In this document: positions 512 to 32,117 of the stretch, in pieces
Layout: each line of letters starts with the position of its first letter
Position numbering within the stretch: position 1 is the stretch's first letter
IMG/VR virus record: IMGVR_UViG_3300025898_000027
Location: 1-32,117 of that record
Reading direction: 5' to 3' (one strand)
Length of the DNA: 32,117 nt
Source: a virus
The notes under the pieces: generated by a model
The model's database searches: none
Told to the model about the DNA's origin: nothing
What the model saw: only the letters and a program-made list of their open reading frames with translations
Made by a program: the position numbers and the translations under genes

Positions 512-727
512 TTGAAGCGAGTATGGACCTGGGGAGACGTCCGCCCAGAGTGGCGGGACGCCCAACACATTAACTGTGAAGCCTGCGGAGCCAGGATCGG
601 CGACCTCTGCTTCAAGAACAACATGTCTCGTCGTAGGACGCCGCACGGCATCCGTCGGGGCAAGGATCTTGACTGGCCCGGTGAGAAGCACTCCCGGATC
701 AGCCACCCATTTTCGAGAGGTTGGTAA
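512..727 (+). CDS. Small zinc-finger protein
   Basis: This 71-residue protein has a Cys/His pattern, CEACGARIGDLC, then TPHGIRRGKD, of a type common in actinobacteriophage zinc-finger proteins. Two CxxC-like Cys pairs and a His about 15 residues on could bind one zinc ion, and the basic RRR/RR stretches would suit nucleic-acid contact. I chose TTG512 because AAAAGGA lies five bases before it. A GTG at 488 would add eight residues but has no visible ribosome binding site. The gene ends just before the lysin start, so the two are probably co-translated. The cellular role is unknown. Confidence 0.65.
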   Translation: MKRVWTWGDVRPEWRDAQHINCEACGARIGDLCFKNNMSRRRTPHGIRRGKDLDWPGEKHSRISHPFSRGW

Positions 728-729
728 AA

Positions 730-1581
730 GTGTACGGTCTAGATTACTCATTCGCCCGCCCCAACCTCGCCGTAGCTAAGTCTCAGGGTTATGGGTTCGT
801 TTGTCGGTACCTCAGTTGGCTACCCAACAGTAAGGTTATCAGTCCGGGTGAGCGAGACTACATACTCGGACAAGGACTCAACCTAGCTCTTAACTGGGAA
901 CAAGACGCACGCGATGGCTTGGGTGGTAGTTCGGCGGGTGACGCTCACGGCAAGGAAGCGGTCCGTCAAGCAATCAACCTAGGTTATCCCCGTGGATCAA
1001 CGATCTACTTCTCGTACGACTGGGATGTGACCGAGGGTCAGCAGAACATCGTTAACGCTCACGCTAGAGCGGCGGGTCAGCACGTTCTGGCAGCCGGGTA
1101 CCGGATGGCAGCCTACGGCGGCTACTGGGTAATCAAACGGTTGTTTGACGCAGGACTCATCGATGACGGGTGGCAGGCGTTCGCCTGGTCCGGTGGGTTA
1201 TGGGACAGCAGAGCTGCCCTCCGACAGATCCGCAATGGGGTAACTGTTGGTGGTGGAGATTGCGACATCGATCAGGCAGTCGGCCCACTGTATCTATGGA
1301 ACCACGATAACCCTACTACAGTCGCTCTCATTAAGCCATCCATTTCGGTACAGGAGGAAGATATGCTTTCCGCGTTCAAGTCAATTGACAACGCTGCGGT
1401 CTACGTGACCGACGGGTGGAAGTACCGGCTAGTCCCCGATGAGCCCGCCTACAAGAACTTGATTGACTCCGGTCTTCTCAAGAAGCCGACTGCGCAGTTC
1501 AGCCAACTCGACGGGTACGGCTGGGCGGTCGTGCTCGGTCATGGTGAATCTCTTTCCGGGTTCGGCGGTACTCCGGTCTAA
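730..1581 (+). CDS. Endolysin with DUF1906 (Rv2525c-like, GH25-like) domain
   Basis: The protein has 283 residues. Residues 3-190 match the DUF1906 glycoside-hydrolase-like fold: GLDYS at the N-terminus (Asp5), LALNWEQDARDG, the acidic SYDWDVTE near residue 100, a YGGYWV segment and DCDIDQA near 180. This domain is a frequent catalytic part of actinophage lysins and is expected to cut the glycan strand of the host wall. The last 90 residues form a separate region, probably wall binding, which I do not recognise. No signal peptide is visible, so release would need a holin. I chose GTG730 because GAGAGG lies nine bases before it. A TTG at 721 touches the same site and is too close. The stop overlaps the next start (TAATG). 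Confidence 0.82.
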   Translation: MYGLDYSFARPNLAVAKSQGYGFVCRYLSWLPNSKVISPGERDYILGQGLNLALNWEQDARDGLGGSSAGDAHGKEAVRQAINLGYPRGSTIYFSYDWDVTEGQQNIVNAHARAAGQHVLAAGYRMAAYGGYWVIKRLFDAGLIDDGWQAFAWSGGLWDSRAALRQIRNGVTVGGGDCDIDQAVGPLYLWNHDNPTTVALIKPSISVQEEDMLSAFKSIDNAAVYVTDGWKYRLVPDEPAYKNLIDSGLLKKPTAQFSQLDGYGWAVVLGHGESLSGFGGTPV

Positions 1582-2276
1582 TGGACCCGCTATCTGTGAT
1601 TCTAGGGTTCCCTTATAGGGCTACTCCACAGAGAGCCGCAATCTTCGACCAAGTAAGACCCTTAGTTGAGGGATTGTTCGACTTCAATGAAGTCGTAATC
1701 ATGGATAGTGGACATGACCGTTTTAACAGAGCGGCCTCTCGGAATATGATAGCCAAGTACGCTATCAATAAGATGGTCCATGTAGTCGTCATTTGCGATG
1801 CTGACAGCATCCCAGATAGGGAAGTCCTAAAAGAAGCCATTTTAGAGGCTCAGGGGGACTCCGATCTCCATGTACCCTTTGATACGGTCCGGGTGTTACC
1901 CTACGGTAGGTTCTTCAGAGAGCCCACTAAGTATGCCCGAATGAGACCCATATCTACTTACGGTCCGAGTTGCGGAGGATGTTACGTTCTCCGGCCCAAT
2001 TTGTGGCAGACGATCGGCGGTATGGACGAGCGGATCGAGGGTTGGGGCTTCGAAGATCAGATCTTCCTAGCGGCCGTGAACACTTTCGCTGGCGGTCCGG
2101 TCTACCACGTAGGCGACCTCACCACAATCGACCATGTTCGAGACGTTTCAGACGAACACATACTCCAAAATCGGGATCTAGTCGACCGATACCACTCCGT
2201 AGAGGGAAATCAGGATGAATTCAGGAAAGTATCGGCCGGATCTAACGGTTTTCGTCCCGACGCGCTCAAGAAGTAA
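1581..2276 (+). CDS. GT-A fold glycosyltransferase (GT2/GT7-like)
   Basis: This 231-residue protein has an ICDADS motif at about residues 71-76, the DxD metal and nucleotide-sugar site of GT-A enzymes. GGMDERIEGWGFEDQIF at about 147-160 is the acceptor and catalytic region typical of GT7C/galactosyltransferase-like proteins. It should transfer a sugar from a nucleotide donor to a protein or glycan in the cytoplasm. It starts on the lysin stop codon and overlaps the next gene by 62 bases. It is the first of three consecutive glycosyltransferases upstream of the tail-fibre genes, so virion proteins are likely targets. Sugar and acceptor cannot be predicted. Confidence 0.75.
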   Translation: MDPLSVILGFPYRATPQRAAIFDQVRPLVEGLFDFNEVVIMDSGHDRFNRAASRNMIAKYAINKMVHVVVICDADSIPDREVLKEAILEAQGDSDLHVPFDTVRVLPYGRFFREPTKYARMRPISTYGPSCGGCYVLRPNLWQTIGGMDERIEGWGFEDQIFLAAVNTFAGGPVYHVGDLTTIDHVRDVSDEHILQNRDLVDRYHSVEGNQDEFRKVSAGSNGFRPDALKK

Positions 2277-2940
2277 GAACGCGGTCGACTTTGGGAGCAA
2301 CTTTACGGGGTTATGCGACCTCAGTACCGAGCTAGTCTTCGTTTTGGACGAAGATGACCCGGAATTGGGCGACTACCTCAAGAGGATTGCCGGTAGATGG
2401 TCCGTCGAGGTGGTTAGCTCGACTCAGAGGGGCATGGTTGACGCCCTGAACGTCGCTTACCGCCGCCGTGAGTTCGCCGGAACCCTAGGTTTTGCTGTCG
2501 GATTCATGGGGGACGACCACCGTCCCCGGACTGAGGGCTGGGACGCAGCCTACGTCAACACCCTAGAGGATCTTGGAACCGGGTTCGTCTACGGTAACGA
2601 CCTCCTACAAGGTCAGTTGATGCCCACTCAGGTAGCGTTTACAGCGGATATAGCCAGAGAATTAGGCTGGATGGCGCCTCCTTGCCTACATCACCTATGT
2701 GTCGACCTCGTATGGCTGGAAATTGGTAGAGCTCTTGACAAAATCATCTATCTAGATGACGTAATCATTGAGCATATGCACCCTCTCGCCGGTAAGGCGA
2801 GGATGGACCGAGGATACCGGGTCGCCAACTCTACCGTGATGGCTCGCCACGACTCAGCGGCTTACGAACGCTACCTAGAGACCGACTTCCCCGGGGATGT
2901 CGCCAAGCTTAAGGATATGATCGATGAAGGGATTAGTTAG
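2215..2940 (+). CDS. GT-A-like glycosyltransferase, second of three
   Basis: The 241-residue protein opens with DLTVFVPTRSR, a usual first beta strand of GT2-like enzymes. It has FVLDEDDPEL near residue 45, MGDDHRP at about 98 as a DxD-like site, a YGND segment, and EHMHPL near 182 as a possible metal-binding His region. It has no membrane segment, so it acts in the cytoplasm. ATG2215 follows GAGGGA with normal spacing even though the start lies 62 bases inside the previous gene. A later start would remove the first strand of the fold. It overlaps the third transferase by 17 bases. Donor and acceptor are unknown. Confidence 0.68.
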   Translation: MNSGKYRPDLTVFVPTRSRSKNAVDFGSNFTGLCDLSTELVFVLDEDDPELGDYLKRIAGRWSVEVVSSTQRGMVDALNVAYRRREFAGTLGFAVGFMGDDHRPRTEGWDAAYVNTLEDLGTGFVYGNDLLQGQLMPTQVAFTADIARELGWMAPPCLHHLCVDLVWLEIGRALDKIIYLDDVIIEHMHPLAGKARMDRGYRVANSTVMARHDSAAYERYLETDFPGDVAKLKDMIDEGIS

Positions 2941-3676
2941 CTTTACCCTCTTCGGAGATCAAGAGATGTACCTCCACGGAGCCGTTCAGAACGCAAAACT
3001 GTGGAAACAGGGCCCGTTGGACGTAGATACCATCTTCTACGTCGGTAGCAGTGTCCCAGACCGGACTTTGACCGCATTGAAGTACTGGAATGCCGAAGTC
3101 GTCTTCTGGGACGGCCCAGAAGACCAGACAGCTACCTTTTGGCGCTACGAAGCGCTCTCAAGGGATTATGACTACCACCTCTTTAGAGATGTCGACTCAA
3201 GGCCCTATGAACGGGAGTACATCGCTCTAAACGAGTGGTTAGACGGGCACTACCAGTTTCACATCATTCGGGACCACCCATACCATGGTGTTCCGATTCT
3301 AGCCGGTCTATTCGGACTGAAGCGTGAAATCCGGGGAATGGTGGCCGATCGTCTCGGCCCGACCATTCCCGAGGACTATTACAAGAAGGTAGTTAAGTCC
3401 TGCAATCACGTGGTGGTCAATTACGAGTCGAACGACTTCTATCAGATTGATCAATGGTGGTTGCGGCTAGAGGTCTATCCGCTCCTCAGGAACAAGATCA
3501 TGGCTCACGACAGCTTCTTTGGTTTTGAGCGACCGAGGTACAAGGTCCAGGTTCCGCCCCGATCTGAACTCGGGGATTTCATCGGCGAAGGCTTCGATGA
3601 GGAAGATGAGCCCAGATACCCCCAACATCGTGAATGTTTCACTCACTGGCCCAGGCGATCGAGGGCTAGACCATAG
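2924..3676 (+). CDS. Putative GT-A-like glycosyltransferase, third of three
   Basis: This 250-residue protein has FRDVDSRPYERE at about residues 86-97, a DxD motif in the context seen in viral and capsular sugar transferases. HIIRDHPYHG and DQWWLR follow, conserved-looking segments of the acceptor side. The N-terminus (LVSFTLFGDQEMYLHGAVQNAKLW) resembles the start of nucleotide-diphospho-sugar transferases that scan for a substrate. Translation is coupled to the previous gene by a 17-base overlap. The acidic/basic C-terminal tail after residue 215 looks disordered. Function is inferred from the DVD motif and context and is less certain than for the first transferase. Confidence 0.6.
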   Translation: MKGLVSFTLFGDQEMYLHGAVQNAKLWKQGPLDVDTIFYVGSSVPDRTLTALKYWNAEVVFWDGPEDQTATFWRYEALSRDYDYHLFRDVDSRPYEREYIALNEWLDGHYQFHIIRDHPYHGVPILAGLFGLKREIRGMVADRLGPTIPEDYYKKVVKSCNHVVVNYESNDFYQIDQWWLRLEVYPLLRNKIMAHDSFFGFERPRYKVQVPPRSELGDFIGEGFDEEDEPRYPQHRECFTHWPRRSRARP

Positions 3677-3690
3677 AAAGGAGTCCATTG

Positions 3691-4035
3691 GTGGACGACG
3701 AACTGCCCGTGGACTACATTCTTAGCTTTCACTCAGGTGATGATCTCGGCAAAGAGGTCATCTATTACGAAGGTTATGCGGTAGTAGACCTCACCGGCTT
3801 CACTATCCAGTGGCGTATCACCATGGATAACGGCCACACCGCGACCCTCATCGACGGCGACGGCCTAGTGGTGGTTCCGACCGAAGGAAAGATAACCCTC
3901 CAGCTAGAGGGTCCGGACGACACAATCGATTTCGTCGGTCATGGTATCCACATCCTCCAGATTACAGCCCCCTACCGTAAGACGCTGATAGTTGGGGATG
4001 TATTCGCTCAGCGAGATGAGGTGAGTTGGCCATAG
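3691..4035 (+). CDS. BppU-N-like small virion protein, copy 1
   Basis: The 114-residue beta-rich protein resembles the N-terminal domain of baseplate upper proteins (BppU_N): a start near DYILSFHSGDD, then VVDLTGFTIQW, and HILQITAPYRKTL near the end. Such domains anchor receptor-binding parts to the tail or sit as small fibres. I chose GTG3691, which follows AAAGGAG by seven bases; TTG3688 is also possible. Its end overlaps the next gene, which encodes a clear paralogue with matching blocks, so the pair arose by tandem duplication. The role is inferred from fold pattern and from its place just before the tail fibre. Confidence 0.55.
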   Translation: MDDELPVDYILSFHSGDDLGKEVIYYEGYAVVDLTGFTIQWRITMDNGHTATLIDGDGLVVVPTEGKITLQLEGPDDTIDFVGHGIHILQITAPYRKTLIVGDVFAQRDEVSWP

Positions 4036-4352
4036 AAGCTCCATACGAGTACGAGTTCAACCTAGTCAAGGGTGACCGTACGACCCGAACCGTCGAGTAC
4101 CTGATCGACGGGGCACCGACCGACTTCACCGGGCTCACTGTTGAATGGTTCTTTACCTGTTTCGGTCACGAGGTTATCGCAGCGACCGGCAGTGAGCTGT
4201 CGGTTGACTCCGACGGGAACCTCAGCCTTGTTCTATCGGCGGCACACACGGCTCTACTCAGTGGCCGGGGTCGCCACGTCCTCAAAATCATTGCACCGTA
4301 CGTCCGCACCCTACTTGAGGGAGAGGTGATCGTTTATGTCCCGGCAGGATAA
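4026..4352 (+). CDS. BppU-N-like small virion protein, copy 2
   Basis: This 108-residue protein is a paralogue of its upstream neighbour. DFTGLTVEWFFTC corresponds to DLTGFTIQW, and HVLKIIAPYVRTLLEGE to HILQITAPYRKTLIVGD. FNLVKGDRTTRTVEYLIDG at the N-terminus is the usual opening of the BppU N-terminal fold. The start is TTG4026, preceded by GAGGTGAG and inside the end of copy 1. Its own end overlaps the tail-fibre start by 17 bases. Translational coupling of all three suggests assembly into one adsorption structure. Confidence 0.58.
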   Translation: MAIEAPYEYEFNLVKGDRTTRTVEYLIDGAPTDFTGLTVEWFFTCFGHEVIAATGSELSVDSDGNLSLVLSAAHTALLSGRGRHVLKIIAPYVRTLLEGEVIVYVPAG

Positions 4353-6486
4353 TCTAGTCGTCCACCGTGGTGGCGTAATCGTCATCTCTGACGTTGGAGC
4401 TAGGGGTGCTACCGGTCTCACTGGCGAGACCGGCCCGACGGGAGCTACCGGTAACCCCGGTGGTCCCGTTACGGTCCCTTACGTTTTCTCGACCACTACC
4501 ACCGACTCAGACCCCGGAAACGGGAACCTGCGATTCAACCAGGCTACCCAGGACTCAACTACCGTTCTGAGGCTCGATCTGATCGGCAGCGACGCCACTG
4601 ACTGGTCGGCGGCTATCGATACGTTCGCTGACAGCTCTAGCACGATCAAGGGCTACATTCGCGTATCTAAGACTCTGAACCCCGCTCTTTGGATACTGTT
4701 TAGTATCACCTCTATGGCTTCCCCTTCTGGTTACCGGAATGTTACGGTAGCAAAGGTCGCATCCTCTGGACCGAACCCGTTCAACAACGGGGACGCTGTC
4801 TCATTGATGTTCACTCGCAACGGGGACAAGGGCGACCAGGGTATCCAGGGCGACTTCGACATCACAACTAACCAGACGATCACTGGTATCAAGACGTTCA
4901 ATCAGGGCAAGCTTCGGGACAAGGGCACATACGTCTATGACGTCAAAGCCTACGGGGCTGTTGGCGACGGGGTAACTGACGACACCACGGCGGTTCAGTC
5001 CGTCATCACCGCCATCTCGTCTACCGGTGGAATTGTCTTCTTCCCGCCGGGGACGTACATCTTCGGAAGTGCGCTCGACCTAAAGGCGACTCACAACGTC
5101 ATCCTTCGTGGTCAGGGTGGAAGATCGGCGGGAGCCGGGGACGCATCCATTCTAAAGTGGACCGGTTCCACGGGCGCCACTAACTTTATCGATGCTCGCT
5201 CATCTCTCGGCCTGGAGATCGCGGACCTCCAGATTGTTACTGACTCTAGCGCATTCACCGGCCGGATGATCGATCTTCGCCTGAACACCACCGGCGGAGC
5301 TTACACCAAGCTAAAGAACCTCTATATCGGTGGCAACACCCATTATTCCGCTACTGGCCTCGACCTGAGCAACACAACGAGGGTTTTCGTAGAGAGCTGC
5401 GCCTTCTACCAGTTGGCCACGTGCATCACCGGTAAGGTCAATAACGCAGACAACTCGAATCAGGTCCGCATTCAGGACTGCGGATTCAACCAGAGCCCTG
5501 TCGCTATCCACAACCCCGGGCAAGCATGGATCATCTCAAGCTGTTGCTTTGAGGGCTCAGCGGGTGGAGTTGCTAACGCAGTAGACCATGGTGCGGGGAT
5601 TCTCGCTGAAGGCCTGATCATTGAGGGTAACTGGACCGGTGACACAACGAGTGGAACCCAGTTCACGGTTGCTGGAGAAGGCATTACCATCCAGGGTAAC
5701 TGGATTGGTGCTACGACCTCTACTGGTATCTCAGTGGATGAATCGACTCAGGGCCTCCACATCACCGGTAACAAGTTCATCGGGTGTACTACGGCCATCA
5801 ATATCGTAGTCAGCTCGACTCACGCGGGGATGCGTATTCACGGAAACTCTTACTCCTCCGTGACCACTAAGCTAGTGGGTATTCCGAACGGTACGAGCGT
5901 AATGGGCTTCCCGTTGGTGTACGAGCAAGCCGGCGAAGTGGAAACCAACCTAGCCACTAACCCGTCCTTCGACTCCAACACTACCGGATGGAACAACACG
6001 GGTGGTGTATTCACCAACAACGGGGCCACTCTCACCCGCATAACCACCGATCACGCTCCGCTAGATGATTCTAGTGGGGCTTGCTGCCAGGTTGACTACA
6101 CGAACGCTCTAAACCAGATGGGGCTTTGGCAGTCGGTAGCTTCGGTTCCTGCGCTAACAGCGGTCATCTTCACCGGGTGGATTCGGAACGTCTCTGGACG
6201 TCCGGTCAAGTTGCGACTTAGAGATACAACGAACTCGATTACCGGTACTGACTCCTCGACCGTTGCGGTCGGGGCCGGCTGGACCAGGGTTAGAGCCTCC
6301 CTCACCACCGGAGCCTCTACCGCATCCGTTGTTATCGCTATCTGCTCCGACACCGTAACCGCCAACGGTCAGTTCTTCGTGGATGAACTCCGCTTTGGCC
6401 AGCGCGGATCGGCCGAGACCCAGATCCAGGCTCAGCTACGGAGAGCTCTCGCGAACTCTGGAATCATAAACGACCTCACAGTCTAA
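4336..6486 (+). CDS. Tail fibre/spike with collagen-like repeats and pectate-lyase-type beta helix
   Basis: The 716-residue protein has distinct parts. Residues 1-20 are a short anchor. About 21-45 are collagen-like Gly-X-Y triplets (GARGATGLTGETGPTGATG). GDKGDQGIQGD follows near 165. From about residue 200, DVKAYGAVGDGVTDDTTAVQ opens a parallel beta helix of the pectate-lyase superfamily (Pectate_lyase_3) that runs to about 540. The C-terminus has NLATNPSFDSNTTGW, a common start of CBM-type carbohydrate-binding domains, and a final short helix. It is a likely receptor-binding or glycan-degrading spike acting on the host surface. ATG4336 follows GAGAGGTGAT. Thr/Ser-rich segments could be acceptors for the neighbouring glycosyltransferases, which is inference. 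Confidence 0.82.
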   Translation: MSRQDNLVVHRGGVIVISDVGARGATGLTGETGPTGATGNPGGPVTVPYVFSTTTTDSDPGNGNLRFNQATQDSTTVLRLDLIGSDATDWSAAIDTFADSSSTIKGYIRVSKTLNPALWILFSITSMASPSGYRNVTVAKVASSGPNPFNNGDAVSLMFTRNGDKGDQGIQGDFDITTNQTITGIKTFNQGKLRDKGTYVYDVKAYGAVGDGVTDDTTAVQSVITAISSTGGIVFFPPGTYIFGSALDLKATHNVILRGQGGRSAGAGDASILKWTGSTGATNFIDARSSLGLEIADLQIVTDSSAFTGRMIDLRLNTTGGAYTKLKNLYIGGNTHYSATGLDLSNTTRVFVESCAFYQLATCITGKVNNADNSNQVRIQDCGFNQSPVAIHNPGQAWIISSCCFEGSAGGVANAVDHGAGILAEGLIIEGNWTGDTTSGTQFTVAGEGITIQGNWIGATTSTGISVDESTQGLHITGNKFIGCTTAINIVVSSTHAGMRIHGNSYSSVTTKLVGIPNGTSVMGFPLVYEQAGEVETNLATNPSFDSNTTGWNNTGGVFTNNGATLTRITTDHAPLDDSSGACCQVDYTNALNQMGLWQSVASVPALTAVIFTGWIRNVSGRPVKLRLRDTTNSITGTDSSTVAVGAGWTRVRASLTTGASTASVVIAICSDTVTANGQFFVDELRFGQRGSAETQIQAQLRRALANSGIINDLTV

Positions 6487-6495
6487 AGGACAGCA

Positions 6496-7380
6496 ATGAA
6501 GGCATTAGTTACCGGTGACGCCGGGTTCGTTGGTCGTAATTTCATCCCGTTCCTTAAGGATAAGGGCTGGGATGTATGGGGCATGGATATCTCAAGAGAT
6601 CCACTTGAGGACGTCGTTCCGTACTTCCAGGATGAGAAGATCGACCAATACGATCTAATCGTCCATTGTGCTTACGAAGTCGGCGGTCGGTCTCATATCG
6701 ACGGCAAGAACATGGCTCTTGCGAACAACCTACTCCTGGACGCGACCATGTTCGACTTCGCGGTAAGGGGCGGCGCTACCTCCGTCCTTTACTTCTCGTC
6801 CTCAGCGGCTTACCCCGTCGAGTATCAGGGTCGGAATCACCCGACCATCCTCACGGAAGCGATGATTAACCAGTTCTATGACCTACGGACTCCAGACGCT
6901 AATTACGGATGGGCCAAACTAACGGGGGAACGCCTTGCTCAAGCGGCTTCTGATCAAGGGGTACGAACTCACGTGGTTAGACCTTTCAGTGGGTATGGTC
7001 CAGACCAGTCACTACAATACCCATTTTCAAGTATCGTCAAGCGTGCTAGCTCGGGAGACCTCAGTGTGTGGGGTCCTCCAGGTCAGACACGGGACTGGAT
7101 TCACATATCCGACGTTCTTGGAGCGGCTTGGGCAGTCTATGAGGCTGACGACCGACGACCGGTAAACCTATGTACCGGTGTCCCTACCGAGATGGGCGAG
7201 CTAGCTTGCCTCGTTGCTGGGTTCTCGGGGATTGAACTAGAGCCTAAGGTGACTTACCAGACCGACAAGCCGGCGGGGGTCTTCTATCGGGTGGGTGACC
7301 CTACCCGGATGAACGAACACTACACCGCTAAGGTTTCGATTGAAGAGGGGGTGCTAGAAGCTCTTGGGAAGACCCGGTAG
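6496..7380 (+). CDS. NAD-dependent epimerase/dehydratase (extended SDR, nucleotide-sugar type)
   Basis: This 294-residue Rossmann enzyme has the NAD(P) motif VTGDAGFVG at residues 5-13, DISRD near 32, YFSSSAAYP near 100 (catalytic Ser/Thr region) and YGWAKLTGE near 138 with the YxxxK catalytic pair. RPFSGYGPDQ near 162 is the substrate-binding stretch seen in UDP-sugar epimerases and GDP-fucose synthases. The likely role is to convert a nucleotide sugar in the cytoplasm to provide a donor for the phage glycosyltransferases. It follows the tail fibre after a short gap with AAAGGA, and its end overlaps the terminase small subunit gene by 17 bases. The exact sugar cannot be told. Confidence 0.82.
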   Translation: MKALVTGDAGFVGRNFIPFLKDKGWDVWGMDISRDPLEDVVPYFQDEKIDQYDLIVHCAYEVGGRSHIDGKNMALANNLLLDATMFDFAVRGGATSVLYFSSSAAYPVEYQGRNHPTILTEAMINQFYDLRTPDANYGWAKLTGERLAQAASDQGVRTHVVRPFSGYGPDQSLQYPFSSIVKRASSGDLSVWGPPGQTRDWIHISDVLGAAWAVYEADDRRPVNLCTGVPTEMGELACLVAGFSGIELEPKVTYQTDKPAGVFYRVGDPTRMNEHYTAKVSIEEGVLEALGKTR

Positions 7381-7879
7381 ACCACGCAAAGACCCCGACA
7401 ATCTGAGCCGGCGGAGCAAGCTAGCGGCCGACCTAGTACCTCACATCGATAACACCCCGATGAAGTTGCCACCATGGGACGGTGTTCGTCGTGGTCCTAG
7501 CCTCCTTGACAAGACTCCTGAGGGCCACGACTGGCACACCATGACTCGTGACTGGTGGATGTGCTGGAGAGAGTCACCTCAGGCTATGTTCATGGGTGAC
7601 ACGGACTGGCATTCCCTACTGGTGGCGGCAGTCATTCACAATCGTATTTGCTGGGGAACCTCTAACACCGCACTCGCTGCGCTCTCGGGGGAACTTCGAC
7701 AGAGAGAGTCTCGTATCGGAGCCTCAATCGAGGACAGACGGCGACTCGGATTAGGGGATGCCGGAGACGGTATTACCCCCGCTGCCCAGGAGGCAGCTAT
7801 TGAACGCGACGCAGAGGTAATCGTTGACTACTTTACACGGCTAACTGAGCGGGTCGCGGAGGACAACCCAGGAGGTTAG
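7364..7879 (+). CDS. Terminase small subunit
   Basis: The 171-residue protein begins MGRPGRPRKDP, the basic start common to actinophage small terminases. It continues with a helical body containing DWHSLLVAAVIHNRICWG and a central ELRQRESRIG helix that suits oligomerisation. It should recognise the packaging start on the phage DNA and hand it to the large subunit. The TTG start lies inside the end of the epimerase gene and fits the protein start seen in homologues. The large subunit follows three bases after the stop, with a GGAGG that lies at the end of this gene. Confidence 0.72.
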   Translation: MGRPGRPRKDPDNLSRRSKLAADLVPHIDNTPMKLPPWDGVRRGPSLLDKTPEGHDWHTMTRDWWMCWRESPQAMFMGDTDWHSLLVAAVIHNRICWGTSNTALAALSGELRQRESRIGASIEDRRRLGLGDAGDGITPAAQEAAIERDAEVIVDYFTRLTERVAEDNPGG

Positions 7880-7882
7880 TCG

Positions 7883-9472
7883 GTGTTACCCAAAGGATTG
7901 CCTGAACGTACCCTTGGATGGGATGTGCTGGAATGGGGAAGCTCCCTACTCGCCCAACCAGACGGAAAGTACCAGGGGGAAAAGTGGGTTTACTCGGATG
8001 AGCAAGCCCTGTTCCTATTGTGGTTCTACGCGCTAGATGAGCGCGGGAAGTTCATATACAGGAACGCGGTACTAGAACGGCCGAAAGGCTGGGGCAAGTC
8101 CCCTCTGTTGGCGGCTATCTGCTGCACAGAGTTCATGGGACCGGTGATGTTCGATGGATGGGACGCAAACGGTAGAGCAGTTGGTAGACCCACGCCTACG
8201 CCACTAGTTCAGATTGCGGCCATCTCTGACAGCCAGGCTGAGAACACGTATGCGCTCTGTAGAGAAATGATGCTACAGGGCGAGATTATGCAAGAGTACC
8301 CCGACCTAGACGTCATGCTGGCCAAGTCCACCTTTCCAGGTGGACGGAAGCTAGAGAAGGTTACCGCCTCCCCGAGAGGTCGTGAAGGCAACCGTGCGAC
8401 GTTCGCGGTAATGGACGAGACGCACCTCTGGATTCCCGCTGAGCAGGGTCCGCAACTCTATGAGGCTCTCGCTCGTAACCTCGCCAAGATGGATCAGCGA
8501 TTCATCGAGACGACGAATGCTCCTGAGCCTGGTCAGGGTTCCGTAGCTGAGTCCACCCACGAGGCGTACGAGAAGATGCAGTCCGGAGAGTCCGAGTCAT
8601 TCGGCCTCCTCTTCGATACCCGAGAAGTCATCATCGATGACATCTACGACAAAGAGAAGGCTTGGCCGGCCCTTAGGTATGTCTATGGGGATGCTGCCCA
8701 CCCGGAGACGGGATGGATCAACCTTGAGCGTATTTGGGCTGAGATTACCGACCCACGTACCAAGGAGTCTGTTGCTCGCCGATTCTACTTCAACCAGCGG
8801 GTTAGACCACCGTCAGCATGGCTCAACCACTCTGAGTGGACCGCCTGCTATAACCCCCACATCAAACTGCGACCCAACGATAAGATCGCGCTCGGTTTCA
8901 AGGGTGCCATCAACAAGGGTGCGGCCTCCCTTGTGGCCTACCGGCTTACAGATGGGGCTCTTTTCACCCTCGGTCTCTGGGAAGCCCCTTCGGGCTTCCG
9001 AGTTCAGACCAAGGACGAAAAGGGTAAGCGCGGCCAAGAGCTTTCCTGGAAAGCTCCGTGGGATGAGATCGACGCTCGTGTTCGCAACGTTCTAGACCAT
9101 CACGACTGTATCAAGCTGGTGGCCGACCCGACCTGCCGACGAGACGTTATCGCCGAGTGGTACGCGGACTATGAGGATGTCGTCGAGGAGTTCTGGTTCT
9201 CTAACAAAGGGAAGTTCGCTAGAGCTGTCGATCAGTTTGAGAATCAGGTTTCCGCTAAGCGGATTAGTTGGGAGTCGAAAGACATCTCCCGTCACGTATT
9301 GAACGCTCATGTCGAGGAAGTCCCAGGCGGACAGATTATCCGACAGGACACACCGTATTCAGAGCGGTTTATTGCCGCCGCTCTTGCTTCTATCCTCGCG
9401 GTCGAAGCTGCTGCCCTCGCTATCCAAGACGGAGCGCTACAAAGGCGCGACAAAACGATCTTCTCCTACTAA
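7883..9472 (+). CDS. Terminase large subunit with atypical nuclease motifs
   Basis: The 529-residue packaging motor has a Walker A-like ERPKGWGKSP at about residues 66-76 and a Walker B FAVMDETHLW near 173-182, so the ATPase half looks intact. The C-terminal RNase H-like nuclease differs from the usual pattern. Where actinophage terminases normally have FDGS with a catalytic Asp, this one has LGFKGAINKGAASLVAYRL near residue 334. Where they have KIDAAVA, this one has ERFIAAALA near the C-terminus. The middle motif LVADPTCRRD near 411 keeps its Asp. The GTG start is preceded by GGAGG at 7871. It would dock to the portal encoded next and fill the capsid with DNA; how DNA is cut is open. Confidence 0.88.
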   Translation: MLPKGLPERTLGWDVLEWGSSLLAQPDGKYQGEKWVYSDEQALFLLWFYALDERGKFIYRNAVLERPKGWGKSPLLAAICCTEFMGPVMFDGWDANGRAVGRPTPTPLVQIAAISDSQAENTYALCREMMLQGEIMQEYPDLDVMLAKSTFPGGRKLEKVTASPRGREGNRATFAVMDETHLWIPAEQGPQLYEALARNLAKMDQRFIETTNAPEPGQGSVAESTHEAYEKMQSGESESFGLLFDTREVIIDDIYDKEKAWPALRYVYGDAAHPETGWINLERIWAEITDPRTKESVARRFYFNQRVRPPSAWLNHSEWTACYNPHIKLRPNDKIALGFKGAINKGAASLVAYRLTDGALFTLGLWEAPSGFRVQTKDEKGKRGQELSWKAPWDEIDARVRNVLDHHDCIKLVADPTCRRDVIAEWYADYEDVVEEFWFSNKGKFARAVDQFENQVSAKRISWESKDISRHVLNAHVEEVPGGQIIRQDTPYSERFIAAALASILAVEAAALAIQDGALQRRDKTIFSY

Positions 9473-9484
9473 GGGGGTGAGAGA

Positions 9485-11026
9485 TTGACTCAGCCAGATA
9501 ATCCAACACAGCAAGGCGAAGCCCTAGTACAGCCGGGCTCCCCCCGTTGGTACCTTACGCGACTAACCCAGCGCCTCCTTATGAGGCAAAGTCGATATGA
9601 TCGACTCGAACGGTACGCTCTCGGTGACCATCCGCTCCCCGTTGGGGACCGTCGGTACGTCGCTGCGCTCGCTGATCTCCAGAAGAAGTGCCGCACAAAC
9701 TACTGTGAGCTAGTCATTCACGCTGTGACCCAGCGTATGAAGGTTACCGGCTTTCAGTTCGGTCCGGATCAGCAGAACGATACTGATGCTAAAGCCATCT
9801 GGAACTATAACGACATGGATTACCAGTCGCCAACGCTCCTGAAGATGGCAGCCACCCTAGGGGATGCGTACATCCTGGTGTCTCCCCCGATCGAGGATGG
9901 CGGGGAGCCCGTTCTGTCGGTCGAAGATCCTCGGATGTGCATAACCGAGGCTGATCCCCGACTACCGACTAAGACCCTAGCCGGCCTTAAGATGTGGCAG
10001 GACGACGTAGACCACGCTATCTATGGTGCTCTATATCTACCCGATGCGATCTACCTCTATAAGGGTCCGGCCATCATTGATGCTCTCACTACTGACGCAG
10101 CAACCCTGACTCACCTACTGGTGGGCCGGAGTGGTATCGCAGCCGGCGGGTTCGTCCTAGTCGACACTCAGCCTAATCCGGTGGGTGAGGTAACCCTAGT
10201 TCGTGGTAACTGGCAACCCGCATTCGGAACCATGGGTAGGGCCGAGCATGAGCCCATCATTCACATCCAGGACCGTATCAATCACACGGTTCTTGACCGG
10301 CTGATCATCGCAAAGAGCCAGGCTTATAATCAGCGATGGGTTACGGGCGCAACCAAGGGTGACAAGTTCAAGGGTGGCGCCGACCTCGTTTGGGCCACCG
10401 TAGAGAGTGACGCCAAGTTTGGCGAGTTCACAGCAGTCGACCTTACACAGATGCTCGCGGCGATCCGCGATGACGTGGGTGACCTTGCTGCGGTATCCCA
10501 GACTCCAGCTACATATCTAATGAACCGAATGGTTAACGTCTCGGGTGACACCCTGACTCAGGACCAGTCGGCTCTAGTCACTAAGACCCACCTCCGCGAA
10601 GAGGCTATGGGTTGGATGTATGAGCGAGCTATGAGACTCGCTTTCAAGATCAAGGGTGATACAGCTAAGTACAAAGAGACTGAAGTTGTCACTCTATGGA
10701 AAGACCCGGAGATTCGGAAGCTCGCGGACGTCGCGGACGCCTTCTCCAAGTTTGCTGCTGGCGGGCTACCGCTCGACATCAATATGCAGCAGACCCAGCT
10801 ATTCACGGACGACCAAATCGAGAGTGCCGTTCAACAGTTCCAAGAGCAACAGCAACAGGAACTAGATCAACAAGTACGGATGGCACAAACACAGACGGAG
10901 GGCCAAGTGGCTGTCGAGAAGACGAAGGCGGGTTTTCCGCCTAAGAAGACAACGAATGCTCCTGCTAAGCCGGGCGCCCCGGCCAAGCCTAAGCCTGGGA
11001 CTGCTAAGCCCAAGCCGACCAAGTAA
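9485..11026 (+). CDS. Portal protein (SPP1 gp6-like)
   Basis: This 513-residue protein matches the SPP1_Gp6-like portal family: an N-terminal region with RWYLTRLTQRLLMRQSRYDRLERYALGDHPLP, TNYCELVIHAVTQRMKVTGF near residue 75, and a central helix region with QTPATYLMNRMVNVSGDTL near 340. Portals form the dodecameric ring at one capsid vertex through which DNA passes. The C-terminus is Gln-rich (QQFQEQQQQELDQQ) and then turns into a Pro/Lys/Ala tail (PAKPKPGTAKPKPTK) that is probably disordered. The TTG start follows GGGGGTGAG. It lies between the terminase and the scaffold gene, as is usual. Confidence 0.87.
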   Translation: MTQPDNPTQQGEALVQPGSPRWYLTRLTQRLLMRQSRYDRLERYALGDHPLPVGDRRYVAALADLQKKCRTNYCELVIHAVTQRMKVTGFQFGPDQQNDTDAKAIWNYNDMDYQSPTLLKMAATLGDAYILVSPPIEDGGEPVLSVEDPRMCITEADPRLPTKTLAGLKMWQDDVDHAIYGALYLPDAIYLYKGPAIIDALTTDAATLTHLLVGRSGIAAGGFVLVDTQPNPVGEVTLVRGNWQPAFGTMGRAEHEPIIHIQDRINHTVLDRLIIAKSQAYNQRWVTGATKGDKFKGGADLVWATVESDAKFGEFTAVDLTQMLAAIRDDVGDLAAVSQTPATYLMNRMVNVSGDTLTQDQSALVTKTHLREEAMGWMYERAMRLAFKIKGDTAKYKETEVVTLWKDPEIRKLADVADAFSKFAAGGLPLDINMQQTQLFTDDQIESAVQQFQEQQQQELDQQVRMAQTQTEGQVAVEKTKAGFPPKKTTNAPAKPGAPAKPKPGTAKPKPTK

Positions 11027-11643: not shown

Positions 11644-12687
11644 ATGGCAGAAGGCGATTACACCAAGAGGGTGGAACGCTTCGAGAGTGGCACTGACCCC
11701 CGGGTACTCCCCGAGAAGGTGGCCCGCTCAGTAATCCAGGACGTAGAACAGTCCTCGGTTGCTATGCAGCTTGCGAACGTCCACCGTATGACCACACGGC
11801 AGGAACGGCTAACCCTAGAAGACAGCTTCCCGGACGCTTACTGGCTAAACGGTACTACCGACTACCCGCGTCTTTCCAGCGGTGACGGCGTGAACAACGC
11901 TTCCGGTAGCGCGCGTGCTAAGGACTCGCAGCCCAAGAAGACCACTAAGGTCACCTGGGCGAGCAAGACCCTAGCGGCTGAGGAGCTAGCGGTTCAGGTT
12001 GCTATCCCGGACTCGTTCATCGACGACACTGGCGCACCGCTATTCGACGAGATCCGTCCGAAGCTAGCGACTGCGTTCGCCAAGAAGATCGACGCTGCGG
12101 TTCTCTTCGGAGAGGACAGCCCGTTCCTACAGGACGGTGTCCTACAGGGTGCTATTGCTAACGGTAACGTAGTTACCCTAGGCAGCGGTGCTTCAGTTCT
12201 CGGCCAGACCCACAACGACATTGCGATGGACGTTGCGGCTCTAGGTTTCGAGGCTGCGCAGGACGGTCTACTGGTCAACAAGTTCGTCACGGCTCCCGGT
12301 TTCGACTGGCGGCTCTACGGGCTGCGTGACTCGAACGGTACCCCCATCTACATCGCACCGACAGACGCTTCCCCGGGCCGGCTCTACGGCCGCCCGACCC
12401 AGGAAGTCACTAACGGTACGTGGGATGAGGACCTAGCCCTTCTAGCTGGCGGTGAGTGGGACAAGTGCATCATCGGTGTCCGTCAGGACATCACGTTCTC
12501 TCTCTCTGACAGTGCGGTTATCTACGACCCGGCTACCGGGCTCGTGAAGTACTCCGCATTCCAGCAAGACGGTAAGGTATTGCGTGCGGTTATGCGTCTC
12601 GCATTCACCGTGGTTCAGCCCCTACGGCACCTCACCAACACGAAGGTTTACCCATTTTGGGTATTGCAAGACAGAAGCTTGAGCTAA
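11644..12687 (+). CDS. Major capsid protein (HK97 fold)
   Basis: The 347-residue protein follows the HK97-type pattern: ARSVIQDVEQSSVAMQLAN near residue 28, a central ELAVQVAIPDSFIDD strand-helix region, ATAFAKKIDAAVLFGED, and a late YGRPTQEVTNGTWD. It builds the icosahedral shell. By hand count, 15 of 32 leucines use CTA and only two use CTG, unusual for a GC-rich actinobacterial host. The last dozen codons (from about 12651, encoding PFWVLQDRSLS) switch to AT-rich codons like those of the HNH gene that follows, so the C-terminus seems to have been replaced when that gene inserted. ATG11644 is preceded by AGAAGGTGA. Confidence 0.87.
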   Translation: MAEGDYTKRVERFESGTDPRVLPEKVARSVIQDVEQSSVAMQLANVHRMTTRQERLTLEDSFPDAYWLNGTTDYPRLSSGDGVNNASGSARAKDSQPKKTTKVTWASKTLAAEELAVQVAIPDSFIDDTGAPLFDEIRPKLATAFAKKIDAAVLFGEDSPFLQDGVLQGAIANGNVVTLGSGASVLGQTHNDIAMDVAALGFEAAQDGLLVNKFVTAPGFDWRLYGLRDSNGTPIYIAPTDASPGRLYGRPTQEVTNGTWDEDLALLAGGEWDKCIIGVRQDITFSLSDSAVIYDPATGLVKYSAFQQDGKVLRAVMRLAFTVVQPLRHLTNTKVYPFWVLQDRSLS

Positions 12688-12707: not shown

Positions 12708-13136
12708 TTGAAGACGTGCTCTAAGTGTGGTGTGACTCGTCCGAATACCGATTTCTCTAAACAGAGATCCATGTCGGACGGGTTGCACCCCGCATGTAAA
12801 CTTTGCAAGAACTCTAGCTGGAATAAATCTTACCGAGAGAATGGTACGGCTAGAGCCGCAACGCTTAGGCGATACGGCATAACTCAGGAGATTTTTGATC
12901 GGATGCTATCGGAGCAAGACGGCAAGTGTGCAATATGCAAGCTGCCCGAATCTCGGGCAGATCTAAAGAACTTGTCGATCGACCACGATCATAGCTGTTG
13001 TCCCGTAAAATCTCGTAGCTGCGGTAAATGTGTTCGAGCCCTAGTCTGTTCTAGTTGTAACAAGACGCTCGGCCTCACAAAAGATAACCCTGCTACGCTC
13101 CGGGCTATGGCCGACTATTTGGAGCGATACCATTAA
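12708..13136 (+). CDS. Free-standing HNH endonuclease (endonuclease VII-like)
   Basis: This 142-residue protein has an N-terminal zinc motif (CSKCGVTRPNTDFSK, then CKLCK) and a C-terminal endonuclease VII-type HNH domain: CAICKLPES, LSIDHDHSC, CVRALVCSSCNKTLGLTKDNP and a last helix RAMADYLERY. The DHDH pair is the catalytic centre. It probably cuts DNA at a homing site. The TTG start is preceded by GAAGGGG about ten bases away. The gene is visibly more AT-rich than its neighbours. It sits exactly between the capsid and a glycosyltransferase gene and ends inside that gene's first codons, with the marks of a recent mobile insertion. A role in resolving or cutting packaged DNA is the other option. 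Confidence 0.85.
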   Translation: MKTCSKCGVTRPNTDFSKQRSMSDGLHPACKLCKNSSWNKSYRENGTARAATLRRYGITQEIFDRMLSEQDGKCAICKLPESRADLKNLSIDHDHSCCPVKSRSCGKCVRALVCSSCNKTLGLTKDNPATLRAMADYLERYH

Positions 13137-14115
13137 CATTCTCAGCTATTCGCACGCATACGTATGTGGTGGCCACAACGGTGGAGCCGAGACCACATTA
13201 CACGATGTGATGAGGTTGTTACGAGAAGAGAAGCACAAGACAACCGCTCTCCTGAGCAAGCCTCACCCGGATGGCTCCGGCCCGTACATCCTCGATGGTG
13301 TTATGGTCCAGTCCTTCTCATCGAAGAGGGACCCTGAGCTTTACATCCCGGACAACGACATCACCCTAACTCAGCTTGAGTGTGCTGCTAGGGCGGGGAT
13401 GCTCGCCAAGAAGGCCGGCAAGAAGAGCGTCCAGTTGATCCACAACGATCAGTCCTACTGTATCAAGTCAGCCGAATACAACGACGCGCTCATCTTCAAC
13501 ACCGAGTGGGTTAAGCCGGCTTACGACCACCTCAACCTTCCGGGGGTTGTGTTCCACCCCCCGATTGAGCCCCCCCGGTACAAGACTGAGACGACCCGGG
13601 AGTTCATCACCATTGTCAATCTGACGGTGGGGACCGAGAACCGGATGTCATATAACAAGGGTGCTGAGACGTTCTACGATCTAGCCCGAGCTTTCCCCCG
13701 CGAGAAGTTCCTCGGGGTTAAGGGTGGCTACGGCGAGCAGTACGTCCCCGACGATCTGCCGTCGAACGTGACGATCATGGAACACACCAACAACCCCATT
13801 GACTACCTTTCACGGACAAAGATCCTTCTATGTCCGTCACGGTACGAATCCTACGGTCGCTCAGCCATCGAAGCTAGTGCGTCCGGTATCCCCTCCCTTA
13901 GTACCAGAACGCTTGGAACCCTGGAGGGTGTGGGGAGCTACCAAACCACGATTGAGAGCCTCCAGCTCTTTGAGTGGGAGCGGGAATTGGCCTTCCTGAT
14001 CGAACCCGACGTGTACCGATGGGCCTCAAAGGAGGCCGCCAAGGGCTGTGACACCCTCTGGAGCCGTAGTGGCTCCGAGTGGGCCGACGTACTTCAGTTA
14101 CTCGAATCTCTATAA
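13132..14115 (+). CDS. GT-B fold glycosyltransferase (GT4-like), apparent ATT start
   Basis: The C-terminal half has ILLCPSRYESYGRSAIEASASG, close to the GT4 donor-site pattern with the E-x7-E pair, so this is a retaining GT-B enzyme using a nucleotide sugar. Its N-terminal Rossmann start, NILSYSHAYVCGGHNGGAET, with the Gly-rich loop, lies upstream of the first ordinary start (GTG13207). From 13045 to 13207 the frame is open but holds no ATG, GTG or TTG. An ATT at 13132 (ATT AAC ATT) is preceded by GGAG with seven bases spacing and overlaps the HNH stop. I therefore place the start there (327 residues). Starting at GTG13207 would lose the Gly-rich loop and probably activity. Its place beside the capsid gene suggests capsid glycosylation. 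Confidence 0.72.
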   Translation: MNILSYSHAYVCGGHNGGAETTLHDVMRLLREEKHKTTALLSKPHPDGSGPYILDGVMVQSFSSKRDPELYIPDNDITLTQLECAARAGMLAKKAGKKSVQLIHNDQSYCIKSAEYNDALIFNTEWVKPAYDHLNLPGVVFHPPIEPPRYKTETTREFITIVNLTVGTENRMSYNKGAETFYDLARAFPREKFLGVKGGYGEQYVPDDLPSNVTIMEHTNNPIDYLSRTKILLCPSRYESYGRSAIEASASGIPSLSTRTLGTLEGVGSYQTTIESLQLFEWERELAFLIEPDVYRWASKEAAKGCDTLWSRSGSEWADVLQLLESL

Positions 14116-28049: not shown

Positions 28050-28162
28050 CCTGTCTTCGCCCCCAAGTACTTGATCTGTTGCCCCGGACCGAAATGGTTG
28101 GTACACCGCTTACACCAACCGTTCGTCTTTGCTGTCACAAGGGTACCAATTGCTATCATCAT
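28013..28162 (-). CDS. Small zinc-finger protein, 49 residues
   Basis: A 49-codon gene begins with ATG overlapping the upstream stop as ATGA, with GGAGG nine bases before it. The residues TNGWCKRCTNHFGPGQQIKY and then GWGHPDCPRKKR give a CxxC and an HxxC pair around a Gly-rich middle, a compact zinc-binding unit. The C-terminus PRKKR is basic and could contact nucleic acid. Its end overlaps the next gene by 37 bases. The reading frame, coupling and Cys/His pattern together make it a real gene. Confidence 0.75.
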   Translation of the reverse strand: MMIAIGTLVTAKTNGWCKRCTNHFGPGQQIKYLGAKTGWGHPDCPRKKR

Positions 28163-28746
28163 TCGGAGTACCCTCCATGGATAGTTGAGTTCGCGTTAGC
28201 GTTACTGATAACCCTACGGGCCCCCGGACCCTGGTGATCTACCCGAGGACGGTACATATTGAGGAGGTCAGTCATCCTGACGATCGCCCGATACAGTCGG
28301 TCTTGCGCCCTCTCGTCTTCCGGAAAGACGCCTAGAGCGTATCTCTCATAGATGTGTCTCTTGAAGGCTGGACCTAGGTGGTCGTATGCATACTTCAGAT
28401 CAGAGTCACCCACCCAGTTATCGGTAAGCTTCGCTGGATCAGCCGGTGGTAGCTGATCCTCCTCGTGAGAGAAGATAAGATCAAGCTTCTTCATTACATC
28501 AGCCGTCCGATAGGCTGACTCCGGGGTCACATAGGTACCCGCCTTCTTGTACCCCCAAGCTAGCTTCTTAGCTTCCGCTCTCAGGTCCTTCTCTGCGTAC
28601 GGGTGGTTGACGTCAGCTCCACGTTCGTACGCAAACAGGAATAGATCCTGAGCGAGGTCTTCCTCCTCGACCTCCGGGAAGTCTCGGGCTACGTATTGAG
28701 CTACCCGCTCAACTAGGGGAGCCCACGTCTCATGGAAGGCGCTCAC
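28159..28746 (-). CDS. Sigma-factor-like phage protein
   Basis: The 195-residue protein begins with APLVERVAQYVARDFPEVEEEDLAQDLFLFAYERG, which resembles sigma-70 region 2 helices. Later parts are GTYVTPESAYRTADVMKKLDLIF and a C-terminal RAIVRMTDLLNMYRP followed by GARRVISNANANS. Related unnamed proteins sit in the early arm of many actinophages and are sometimes called sigma-like or DNA-binding. If it is a true sigma or helix-turn-helix regulator it could direct transcription of the late genes; this is inference. The start overlaps the upstream stop as GTGA. Confidence 0.6.
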   Translation of the reverse strand: MSAFHETWAPLVERVAQYVARDFPEVEEEDLAQDLFLFAYERGADVNHPYAEKDLRAEAKKLAWGYKKAGTYVTPESAYRTADVMKKLDLIFSHEEDQLPPADPAKLTDNWVGDSDLKYAYDHLGPAFKRHIYERYALGVFPEDERAQDRLYRAIVRMTDLLNMYRPRVDHQGPGARRVISNANANSTIHGGYSE

Positions 28747-28919: not shown

Positions 28920-29202
28920 GGAGACGAACACCCACAATCATCGCTACTGCCATAGCGGCAGTCTGGATAAGTTCATCGACTAGGTTGTCGATATCACCCT
29001 CATCATGAGTAAGGGCTCTCGCCACCTCTCCGAACTCTTCCGCGAGGATGACGAACGAGTCATTGAGGGGTTTCACTGGGTTCATCGGAGTTTGTTCGAA
29101 GCCGTGCTTCTTGACCGCCGAGAACAACTCTTCACCCACCTCAGCTAGAGCGTCACTGATCTGGTCTAGGACGGGACCAGGGTTGTTAAATATTTCGGAC
29201 AC
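28912..29202 (-). CDS. MazG-like nucleotide pyrophosphohydrolase
   Basis: This 96-residue helical protein has the sequence AEEFGEVARALTH and, one turn later, IDNLVDELIQTAAMAVAMI. The EExxE and ExxD spacing matches the metal site of MazG-like pyrophosphohydrolases, which split nucleoside triphosphates or related signalling nucleotides. Phage MazG proteins have been linked to nucleotide pool control. I chose GTG29202 because GAGGGAG lies five bases before it. The longer open frame back to 29400 overlaps the exonuclease gene and lacks any related sequence. It overlaps the upstream stop by 17 bases. Confidence 0.72.
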   Translation of the reverse strand: MSEIFNNPGPVLDQISDALAEVGEELFSAVKKHGFEQTPMNPVKPLNDSFVILAEEFGEVARALTHDEGDIDNLVDELIQTAAMAVAMIVGVRLRG

Positions 29203-29911
29203 TGACTCCCTCGATTCTACGTGTGTCTTTGGACCAGCCTCCACAGGCTGAGCATCGATAGGTTTGAAACTTACCAACCGCCGTATAGGAGTGCCCCCGC
29301 TTTTGGAGTACTCCGTTACCACAACGAGTACATTCGGTTCCTGAGTAGAGGGTTCGGTTGGGGTAATCGGAGATCCAGGGGAGTACCTTGTCGTGAACAC
29401 CTTCCAAGATGGTGACGTCTCGTCGACAGTACTTCTCCATGTCCCGGCGGGCCTTAGAGTCTCCCGCGATAACCTTTACCCACAACTCGTGACCCTCGTG
29501 ACCGAGCTTCTCTCCTGCCCCCAAACGCTTAGCTACGTAAGCTAGCTTATTCGAGGGGAACCGAAACTTAGCTTTGACGGTTTTGTATATGTCGATGGAC
29601 TTATAGGGTGCTGGGGGCCCATACCCCTCTAGGAGAAAATCCTTGTTTAGGGTGGGTAGGTCAAACCGATCACCGTTGTAGGTGACTACGGCGTCGCTCT
29701 CATCCATGAGTTCATGAATGACTCCCAGGTAGGAGTCACGGTCGAGCCAATGGCTCCCAAAGAAACCCTTCTTGTCTCCGAGCCATTTAGCAGCCCAACA
29801 CAGGGTGTAGCTGGACTCCCGTAGCTGTGACAGCGAGACGTTCTGTTGCCACAACCCCCACACATCAGCGATATTCGGACTGGTTTCGATGTCCAGTAGA
29901 AGGATCTTCAC
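29186..29911 (-). CDS. DEDDy 3'-5' exonuclease (RNase H-like) with C-terminal zinc ribbon
   Basis: The 241-residue protein has the three exonuclease motifs: LLLDIETSPN at residues 4-13, VTYNGDRFDLPTL near 76-88, and YCRRDVTIL near 167, with Tyr four residues before the Asp (DEDDy type). From about residue 195, CTRCGNG and later YRCSACGGW make a zinc ribbon, which could bind DNA or a partner. It should trim DNA or RNA 3' ends in replication or repair. GTG29911 overlaps the upstream stop as GTGA. It lies in the replication arm near the primase. The zinc-ribbon ending resembles that of YprB/RNase_H_2-like exonucleases in actinophages. Confidence 0.8.
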   Translation of the reverse strand: MKILLLDIETSPNIADVWGLWQQNVSLSQLRESSYTLCWAAKWLGDKKGFFGSHWLDRDSYLGVIHELMDESDAVVTYNGDRFDLPTLNKDFLLEGYGPPAPYKSIDIYKTVKAKFRFPSNKLAYVAKRLGAGEKLGHEGHELWVKVIAGDSKARRDMEKYCRRDVTILEGVHDKVLPWISDYPNRTLYSGTECTRCGNGVLQKRGHSYTAVGKFQTYRCSACGGWSKDTRRIEGVSVRNI

Positions 29912-31951: not shown

Positions 31952-32117
31952 GCTTTCCTCTTCCTTCTCTTCTTCTTGGGTCTTCCGGGAGCGATTACTC
32001 TCTCTCCAAGAACGGCCTCAGCCGGTGGATTCCGAAGGTAGTCAGCGAGTCGTTGAGCGAGATCGTGATTTTTGAGCCTTCCCACGAGGCGTGTATTGCA
32101 ATATCCACATAGGAGCC
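31948..32117 (-). CDS. Endonuclease VII (HNH), C-terminal part; 5' end outside window
   Basis: The frame enters from the right edge and ends at TGA 31948-31950 after 55 visible codons. LLCGYCNTRLVGRLKNHDLAQRLADYLRNPPAEAV is the C-terminal signature of actinophage endonuclease VII: a CxxC near the HNH centre and the YLRNPP end. The last 15 residues are extremely basic (RPKKKRRKRKA). The catalytic DHDH part lies beyond the window. The enzyme would resolve branched DNA before or during packaging. It is distinct from the HNH gene near the capsid, which lacks the basic tail. Confidence 0.75.
   Translation of the reverse strand, partial: LLCGYCNTRLVGRLKNHDLAQRLADYLRNPPAEAVLGERVIAPGRPKKKRRKRKA

Follow-up and report, generated by a model that had tools for sequence, protein, structure and literature searches.

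Loss of catalytic nuclease aspartates in a clade of phage terminase large subunits: a probable case of a nuclease-dead packaging motor

Introduction

The catalytic centre of the HK97 terminase large subunit (TerL) is formed by D302, D388 and D471 (PMC9410871). In the G20c enzyme, activity was lowest for the variants D294N, D347N and D429N, and the three residues concerned were termed indispensable; a further aspartate, D300, is not essential (PMC5389553). Beyond cutting, the nuclease domains of HK97 TerL lie beneath the portal and make contacts with DNA (PMC10359639). A TerL nuclease that is dead has one known precedent, the C-terminal domain of phi29 gp16, a vestigial domain that binds DNA (PMC7672431), found in systems that lack a small subunit, TerS (PMC9410871). 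According to Mahler et al., the domain is fully functional in all phages other than those of the phi29 type. Here we describe a TerL from a viral contig of 32,117 nucleotides (IMG/VR record IMGVR_UViG_3300025898_000027), the whole of which is referred to as the window, together with a group of relatives that share its altered nuclease site.

Results and Discussion

Gene neighbourhood and sequence motifs

The window TerL is split into an ATPase half (residues 1-310) and a degenerate RNase H-like nuclease (residues 311-529), and its gene lies in the order terS-terL-portal-scaffold-capsid, as is usual for a phage TerL. The protein gave no match in Pfam or NCBIfam, and was assigned via PHROG_9. 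The features of this region are as follows.

7364..7879, + strand: terS, terminase small subunit, 171 aa (Terminase_7 PF25673, E 5.3e-19)
7883..9472, + strand: terL, terminase large subunit, 529 aa (PHROG_9, E 6.5e-56)
8084..8101, + strand: Walker A, PKGWGKS at residues 67-73 (KGWGKS 68-73), normal by alignment
8402..8425, + strand: Walker B, FAVMDETH at residues 174-181, normal by alignment
8813..9469, + strand: nuclease domain (RNase H-like), residues 311-529, predicted fold kept
8900..8902, + strand: Lys340 (AAG) at the catalytic Asp1 site (HK97 D302), by family alignment and HK97 profile match
8918..8920, + strand: Gly346 at the auxiliary Asp site (+6; G20c D300), by family alignment
9125..9127, + strand: Asp415, equivalent to Asp2 and the sole catalytic Asp left, at the end of strand 408-414
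9374..9376, + strand: Ala498 (GCC) at the catalytic Asp3 site (HK97 D471), by family alignment and HK97 profile match
9485..11026, + strand: portal protein, 513 aa (PHROG_104, E 4.2e-99)
11644..12687: major capsid protein

An initial annotation, made from the letters of the window, had described normal Walker A and B motifs, loss of the first and the late catalytic Asp, and retention of an Asp in the middle ADP motif only; it had also named as checks an alignment with actinophage TerLs, a structure prediction and a survey of HNH genes in relatives, all of which were run. Alignment with 88 homologues bore out most of this reading. Both Walker motifs are conserved, the GFDG motif has become GFKG (K340, where intact homologues have Asp), and the VADP motif still holds its Asp (D415). 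The KIDAAVA motif reads RFIAAALA, with the Asp column falling on A498 and not on I497. The count of two lost residues in three was correct as far as it went, and incomplete in that the auxiliary Asp, a fourth residue, has been lost as well (G346). The same losses were seen in L009 (75 % identity) and L017 (about 50 %), and all others of the 80 IMG/VR homologues aligned carried D/D/D. The TerLs of Streptomyces, Thermobifida, Microbacterium, Curtobacterium and Arthrobacter phages were likewise all DDD, compared with K/D/A and no auxiliary Asp in the window. One of the Streptomyces phages, Ponzi (L004:5971-7592), has its TerL annotated as two genes, for ATPase and nuclease, with the nuclease Asps intact; the two frames overlap and look like a frameshift, be it programmed, a true split or a sequencing error.

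Mapping onto terminases of known structure

The family profile matched HK97 TerL (6z6d) with an E value of 7.6e-14, and placed Asp1 on HK97 D302 and Asp3 on D471 once a 10-residue offset of the deposited chain was allowed for. For Asp2 we relied on the family alignment and on the end of the predicted strand 408-414, as the 6z6d HMM alignment is probably shifted at this point (HK97 D388 is nine residues downstream). The auxiliary position, six residues after Asp1, corresponds by spacing to G20c D300.

An AlphaFold2 model of the window TerL (pLDDT 87) matched HK97 TerL 6z6d with Z 26.0. Its residues 310-511 superposed on the G20c nuclease 5m1f with Z 17.6 (rmsd 3.0 over 173 residues), and its ATPase half matched P74-26 TerL 4znj with Z 19.9. 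The TerL of a relative that has none of the three Asps, L103, gave much the same picture (pLDDT 89.7; HK97 TerL, Z 27.6; G20c nuclease domain, Z 17.6, rmsd 3.3). The structure prediction thus shows an RNase H-like fold that matches those of HK97 TerL and the G20c nuclease, and the models predict that this fold has been kept while the catalytic chemistry is gone.

A clade of TerLs without Asp1 and Asp3

In total, 19 IMG/VR contigs, the window included, were found to encode a TerL in which Asp1 and Asp3 are both non-acidic (19/19). As the loss is common to so many separate contigs, K340 as a product of chance or sequencing error was excluded. A search was seeded with the ATPase half, such that membership was independent of the GFKG motif pattern; among 75 loci that included the C-terminus, it returned 60 with D/D/D and 15 in which Asp1 and Asp3 were both missing, with no intermediates. 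Further members came by other routes: L100 by motif pattern, L124 by a looser motif pattern, and L103, L125, L127 and L128 by nuclease-domain alignments. The contigs are of metagenomic or isolate origin and include some near-duplicates (L167/L169 and L128/L195).

The states found at Asp1/Asp2/Asp3 include KDA, KDS, KDG, KDF, KDT, KDI, VDA, RDA, RDV, RAS and SNA. When 17 clade members were compared with 35 intact TerLs, in which every one of these columns is Asp (35/35), the Asp1 column held ten Lys, five Arg, one Val and one Ser, the auxiliary column no Asp at all (0/17), and the Asp3 column five Ala, five Ser, two Phe, two Val and one each of Gly, Thr and Ile. The Asp2 column is the best kept, with 14 Asp, two Ala and one Asn; among the contigs, Asp2 has also gone from L103, L167 and L169 (each Ala) and from L162 (Asn). 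Among the conserved residues that the clade domain has acquired is an arginine, R460, present in 17/17 clade members and in 0/35 intact TerLs. In a maximum-likelihood tree the 17 members formed one clade (support 100/100), surrounded on every side by intact TerLs, of which the L170-L180 group was the nearest. A single loss in the ancestor of the clade accounts for this pattern, the members being monophyletic and nested among Asp-Asp-Asp TerLs.

A single-protein search of viral contigs and genome contigs with the window TerL gave no match, and rescanning the genome contigs with a three-member alignment yielded no clade member. There was likewise none among INPHARED phages, where the best matches share 35-40 % identity, with DDD in those that were aligned. 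Searching plasmid and phage DNA with one clade genome, G007, gave no match either. This genome (L127/G007; 58,139 b) is a near-complete temperate relative with a serine integrase, four endonuclease VII genes and HNH genes. Several clade members also keep a glycosyltransferase/epimerase cluster upstream of terS (721-7380 in the window) and a glycosyltransferase gene directly after the capsid gene (13207-14115); these sugar genes suggest glycosylation of capsid, tail or DNA.

Constraint on the nuclease half

An alternative is a terL that is decaying or artefactual, be it a pseudogene or an assembly error, with another TerL responsible for packaging. In one member (L125:7034-8592) the frame is indeed broken near Walker A, giving two overlapping frames, and the nuclease half shows lower conservation than its intact counterparts. 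For pairs matched in ATPase identity, nuclease identity was 47 % for clade pairs and 57 % for intact pairs in the 60-70 % bin, and 65 % versus 78 % in the 70-90 % bin. In the 40-60 % bins the clade nuclease was not less constrained, although the intact pairs there span two domain types. By these comparisons, the clade domain is less constrained among closer pairs, yet far from decayed. Between the window and L009, amino-acid identity is 79 % in the ATPase half and 69 % in the nuclease half, and the values for the nuclease halves (pN 0.22, pS 0.77) indicate purifying selection on the domain. Furthermore, the TerL of L017 (L017:1659-4223) carries a 316-aa intein-like insert (LAGLIDADG_3 PF14528, with a Hint-like start and a VVTHN/T end) directly after the Walker B residues MDE; an insert at exactly this site fits a gene that must stay functional. 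The same states recur in 19 contigs with open frames and strong purifying selection, the clade is long-standing, and G000, G001, G006 and G007 each have a single TerL, with no second TerL-like nuclease found in these four. Decay or artefact is thus a most improbable account of the locus.

Does the nuclease still cut?

With Asp1 and Asp3 both lost, two-metal cleavage would be expected, from established chemistry, to be abolished, given that the equivalent G20c residues are indispensable. As two of the three Asps (three of four with the auxiliary residue) are gone clade-wide, the window TerL very probably does not cut DNA by the two-metal route, which is what the initial annotation had proposed and which agrees with the G20c data (PMC5389553). 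That cutting has been lost from the clade TerL altogether is, judging by the aligned sequences, highly probable.

It might be argued that the nuclease is alive but rebuilt, with D415 binding metal at a shifted site together with E435/E436 or E453. D415 is kept in 14/17 members, E436 is acidic in 17/17, and E435 and E453 are acidic in about 88 %, the latter being rare in intact TerLs. Set against this, 15/17 members have Lys or Arg at Asp1, the residue common to both metals, and the Asp3 position drifts freely. D415 too is missing from L103 and L167, and E435 is replaced in L128/L195. VEEFW is no compensation for the loss, as this motif is also present in intact TerLs (the L106 group). Shifted catalytic residues had been raised as a possibility at the outset; nothing points that way, and L103, L167 and L169 do without all three Asps. 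We therefore consider a rebuilt site quite unlikely, and take the domain as one that has very probably ceased to cut.

Is a cut needed at all?

A motor that does not cut would suffice if preformed unit-length genomes were packaged as in phi29, with the nuclease vestigial as in gp16, the precedent introduced above. Against this, TerS is kept in the window and its relatives, with G007, G009 and G010 carrying both TerS and TerL. Clade genomes encode DnaE, a DnaB-like helicase and primase, are near 58 kb in size and carry long-tailed phage genes, and no packaging RNA was matched by Rfam in the 32-kb window fragment. The ends of the 57.5-kb G010 contig are identical over 127 bases, which closes it into a circle, and the G007 contig is opened inside a tail-chaperone gene, the halves of which appear at the two contig ends (the match for the C-terminal half being weak, E 0.011). 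As G010 closes circularly and G007 opens within a tail gene, no fixed protein-capped ends are seen. The 127-base overlap is itself probably an assembler k-mer closing the circle and not a biological terminal repeat; an overlap of the same length as in L164/G010 was observed in the intact relative G023. Taking together the retained TerS, the DnaE/DnaB replication genes and the G010 circle, packaging without a cut in the phi29 manner is very unlikely, and a cut made by a nuclease other than TerL has to be considered.

Candidate cutting nucleases

The initial annotation had nominated either HNH/endonuclease VII protein of the window as a partner. The window in fact holds one complete endonuclease VII-like gene and the edge of a second, and no PF01844 HNH gene, since it ends before the region concerned. 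These genes and two others are listed below.

12708..13136, + strand: endonuclease VII-like protein (His-Me finger), CAIC..DHDH..CSSCN intact (PF02945, E 2.8e-21)
28162..28746, - strand: sigma-K-like factor, phage-encoded (PHROG_354)
29186..29911, - strand: DnaQ-like DEDDh exonuclease with a zinc-finger-like C-terminal tail (PHROG_403, E 1.5e-82)
31978..32115, - strand: second endonuclease VII gene, edge only, belonging to the replication module; 67 % identity with the G007 copy

Complete packaging in T4 requires endonuclease VII, and the late-operon endonuclease VII-like proteins of this group might likewise be the cutting partners. Their motifs are intact, and late-operon copies occur in the window, G006, G007 and G010; such genes flank terL in G010 and adjoin it in L165. 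Their place is not conserved, however: in the window the gene sits between those for the major capsid protein and a glycosyltransferase, in G006 after the major tail gene, and in G007 and G010 before it. The late operon has no such gene in L009/G001, L100 and G009. They are also equally common in DDD relatives, one of which (G022) has six, and their pattern looks like that of mobile homing genes. A fixed, conserved partner of this kind was rejected on account of the scattered positions, and the proposal as a whole appears improbable.

By comparison, 3/3 complete or near-complete clade genomes (G007, G009 and G010) encode an HNH protein of PF01844 whose motif is intact, and because of this the idea of an HNH partner survives. 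In G010, read with terL forward, the gene lies at 34592-34909. Its orthologues in the phages Success and Ponzi (gp39 in both) lie just upstream of terS. As intact-TerL relatives (G022 and G023) equally carry the gene, its presence is no proof of function; the survey of relatives is thus positive for the clade without being specific to it. The initial annotation had also cited HK97 as a case of HNH help to a terminase, which is correct in that gp74 stimulates cos cleavage (PMC9410871), and by analogy with gp74 the HNH protein is the best candidate for a partner. The DnaQ-like exonuclease was found in 5/5 clade contigs reaching its region versus 0/4 intact near-complete relatives, and, though noted as a lead, more probably belongs to the replication module.

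Proposed mechanism

The reading that we favour, and hold to be probable, is that of a nuclease-dead motor, in which the active site was lost once, the domain was kept for other work and the cuts are made in trans. The TerL ATPase would translocate DNA with a catalytically dead RNase H-like domain, the loss having arisen in the ancestor of this uncultured clade of tailed phages. Retention of the nuclease domain would be explained by other, non-catalytic work, a role of some such kind being very likely; its most likely tasks would be to grip DNA and to dock to the portal, as proposed by comparison with the HK97 nuclease ring and the phi29 vestigial domain. The Lys or Arg at the former metal site probably neutralizes the remaining acidic pocket or contacts phosphate. 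TerS would still mark the packaging site, and the initiating and terminating cuts would both be made in trans by another nuclease, for which the conserved HNH protein is the foremost candidate and the endonuclease VII-like proteins are alternatives. Cutting in trans by some nuclease is likely; that the HNH protein is the one responsible is a tentative assignment, drawn from the HK97 analogy, that may well prove wrong.

Significance

We lean slightly towards the view that, in a TerS-containing, HK97-type long-tailed clade, the motor has been split from the scissors, with both cuts left to a distinct nuclease, be it a His-Me finger (HNH) enzyme or one of another kind. If true, this would be a third arrangement beside the cutting TerL and the non-cutting motors of the phi29 type. 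The openly accessible literature searched yielded no description of a dead TerL nuclease in any HK97-type lineage that has TerS, and the clade stands as a sequence-level counter-example among phages with TerS and the usual head gene order. Should cutting occur in trans, the long-standing question of cooperation between HNH protein and terminase would become directly testable in a natural system free of background TerL cleavage. On a practical level, annotation pipelines will call the clade proteins ordinary terminases.

Comparison with known systems

The closest described systems are HK97 and the PHROG_9 actinophages, of which Streptomyces phages Success, Ibantik and Ponzi and Thermobifida phage P318 were compared; identity between the window TerL and those of the Streptomyces phages is about 35-38 %. 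The two-domain build, the Walker motifs and the RNase H-like fold of these TerLs are as in the window, and the gene order terS-terL-portal-scaffold-capsid is common to all. The difference lies in the nuclease site, where D302/D388/D471 of HK97 TerL stand against K/D/A, without the auxiliary Asp, in the window. HK97 encodes the HNH protein gp74, and G007, G009 and G010 encode a PF01844 HNH protein. In HK97, however, the HNH protein stimulates a TerL with an intact triad, whereas the clade TerL would, by analogy, depend on its HNH protein completely.

With phi29 gp16 the window TerL appears, from its sequence, to share an RNase H-like domain that lacks catalytic residues and is nevertheless kept in the motor (PMC7672431), with Asp1 replaced by Tyr in gp16 and by Lys in the window. 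The phi29 system differs in having no TerS, protein-capped unit-length DNA, a pRNA and a cut-down domain, whilst the window encodes a full-length domain and a TerS, and its relatives are of the DnaE type and close circularly.
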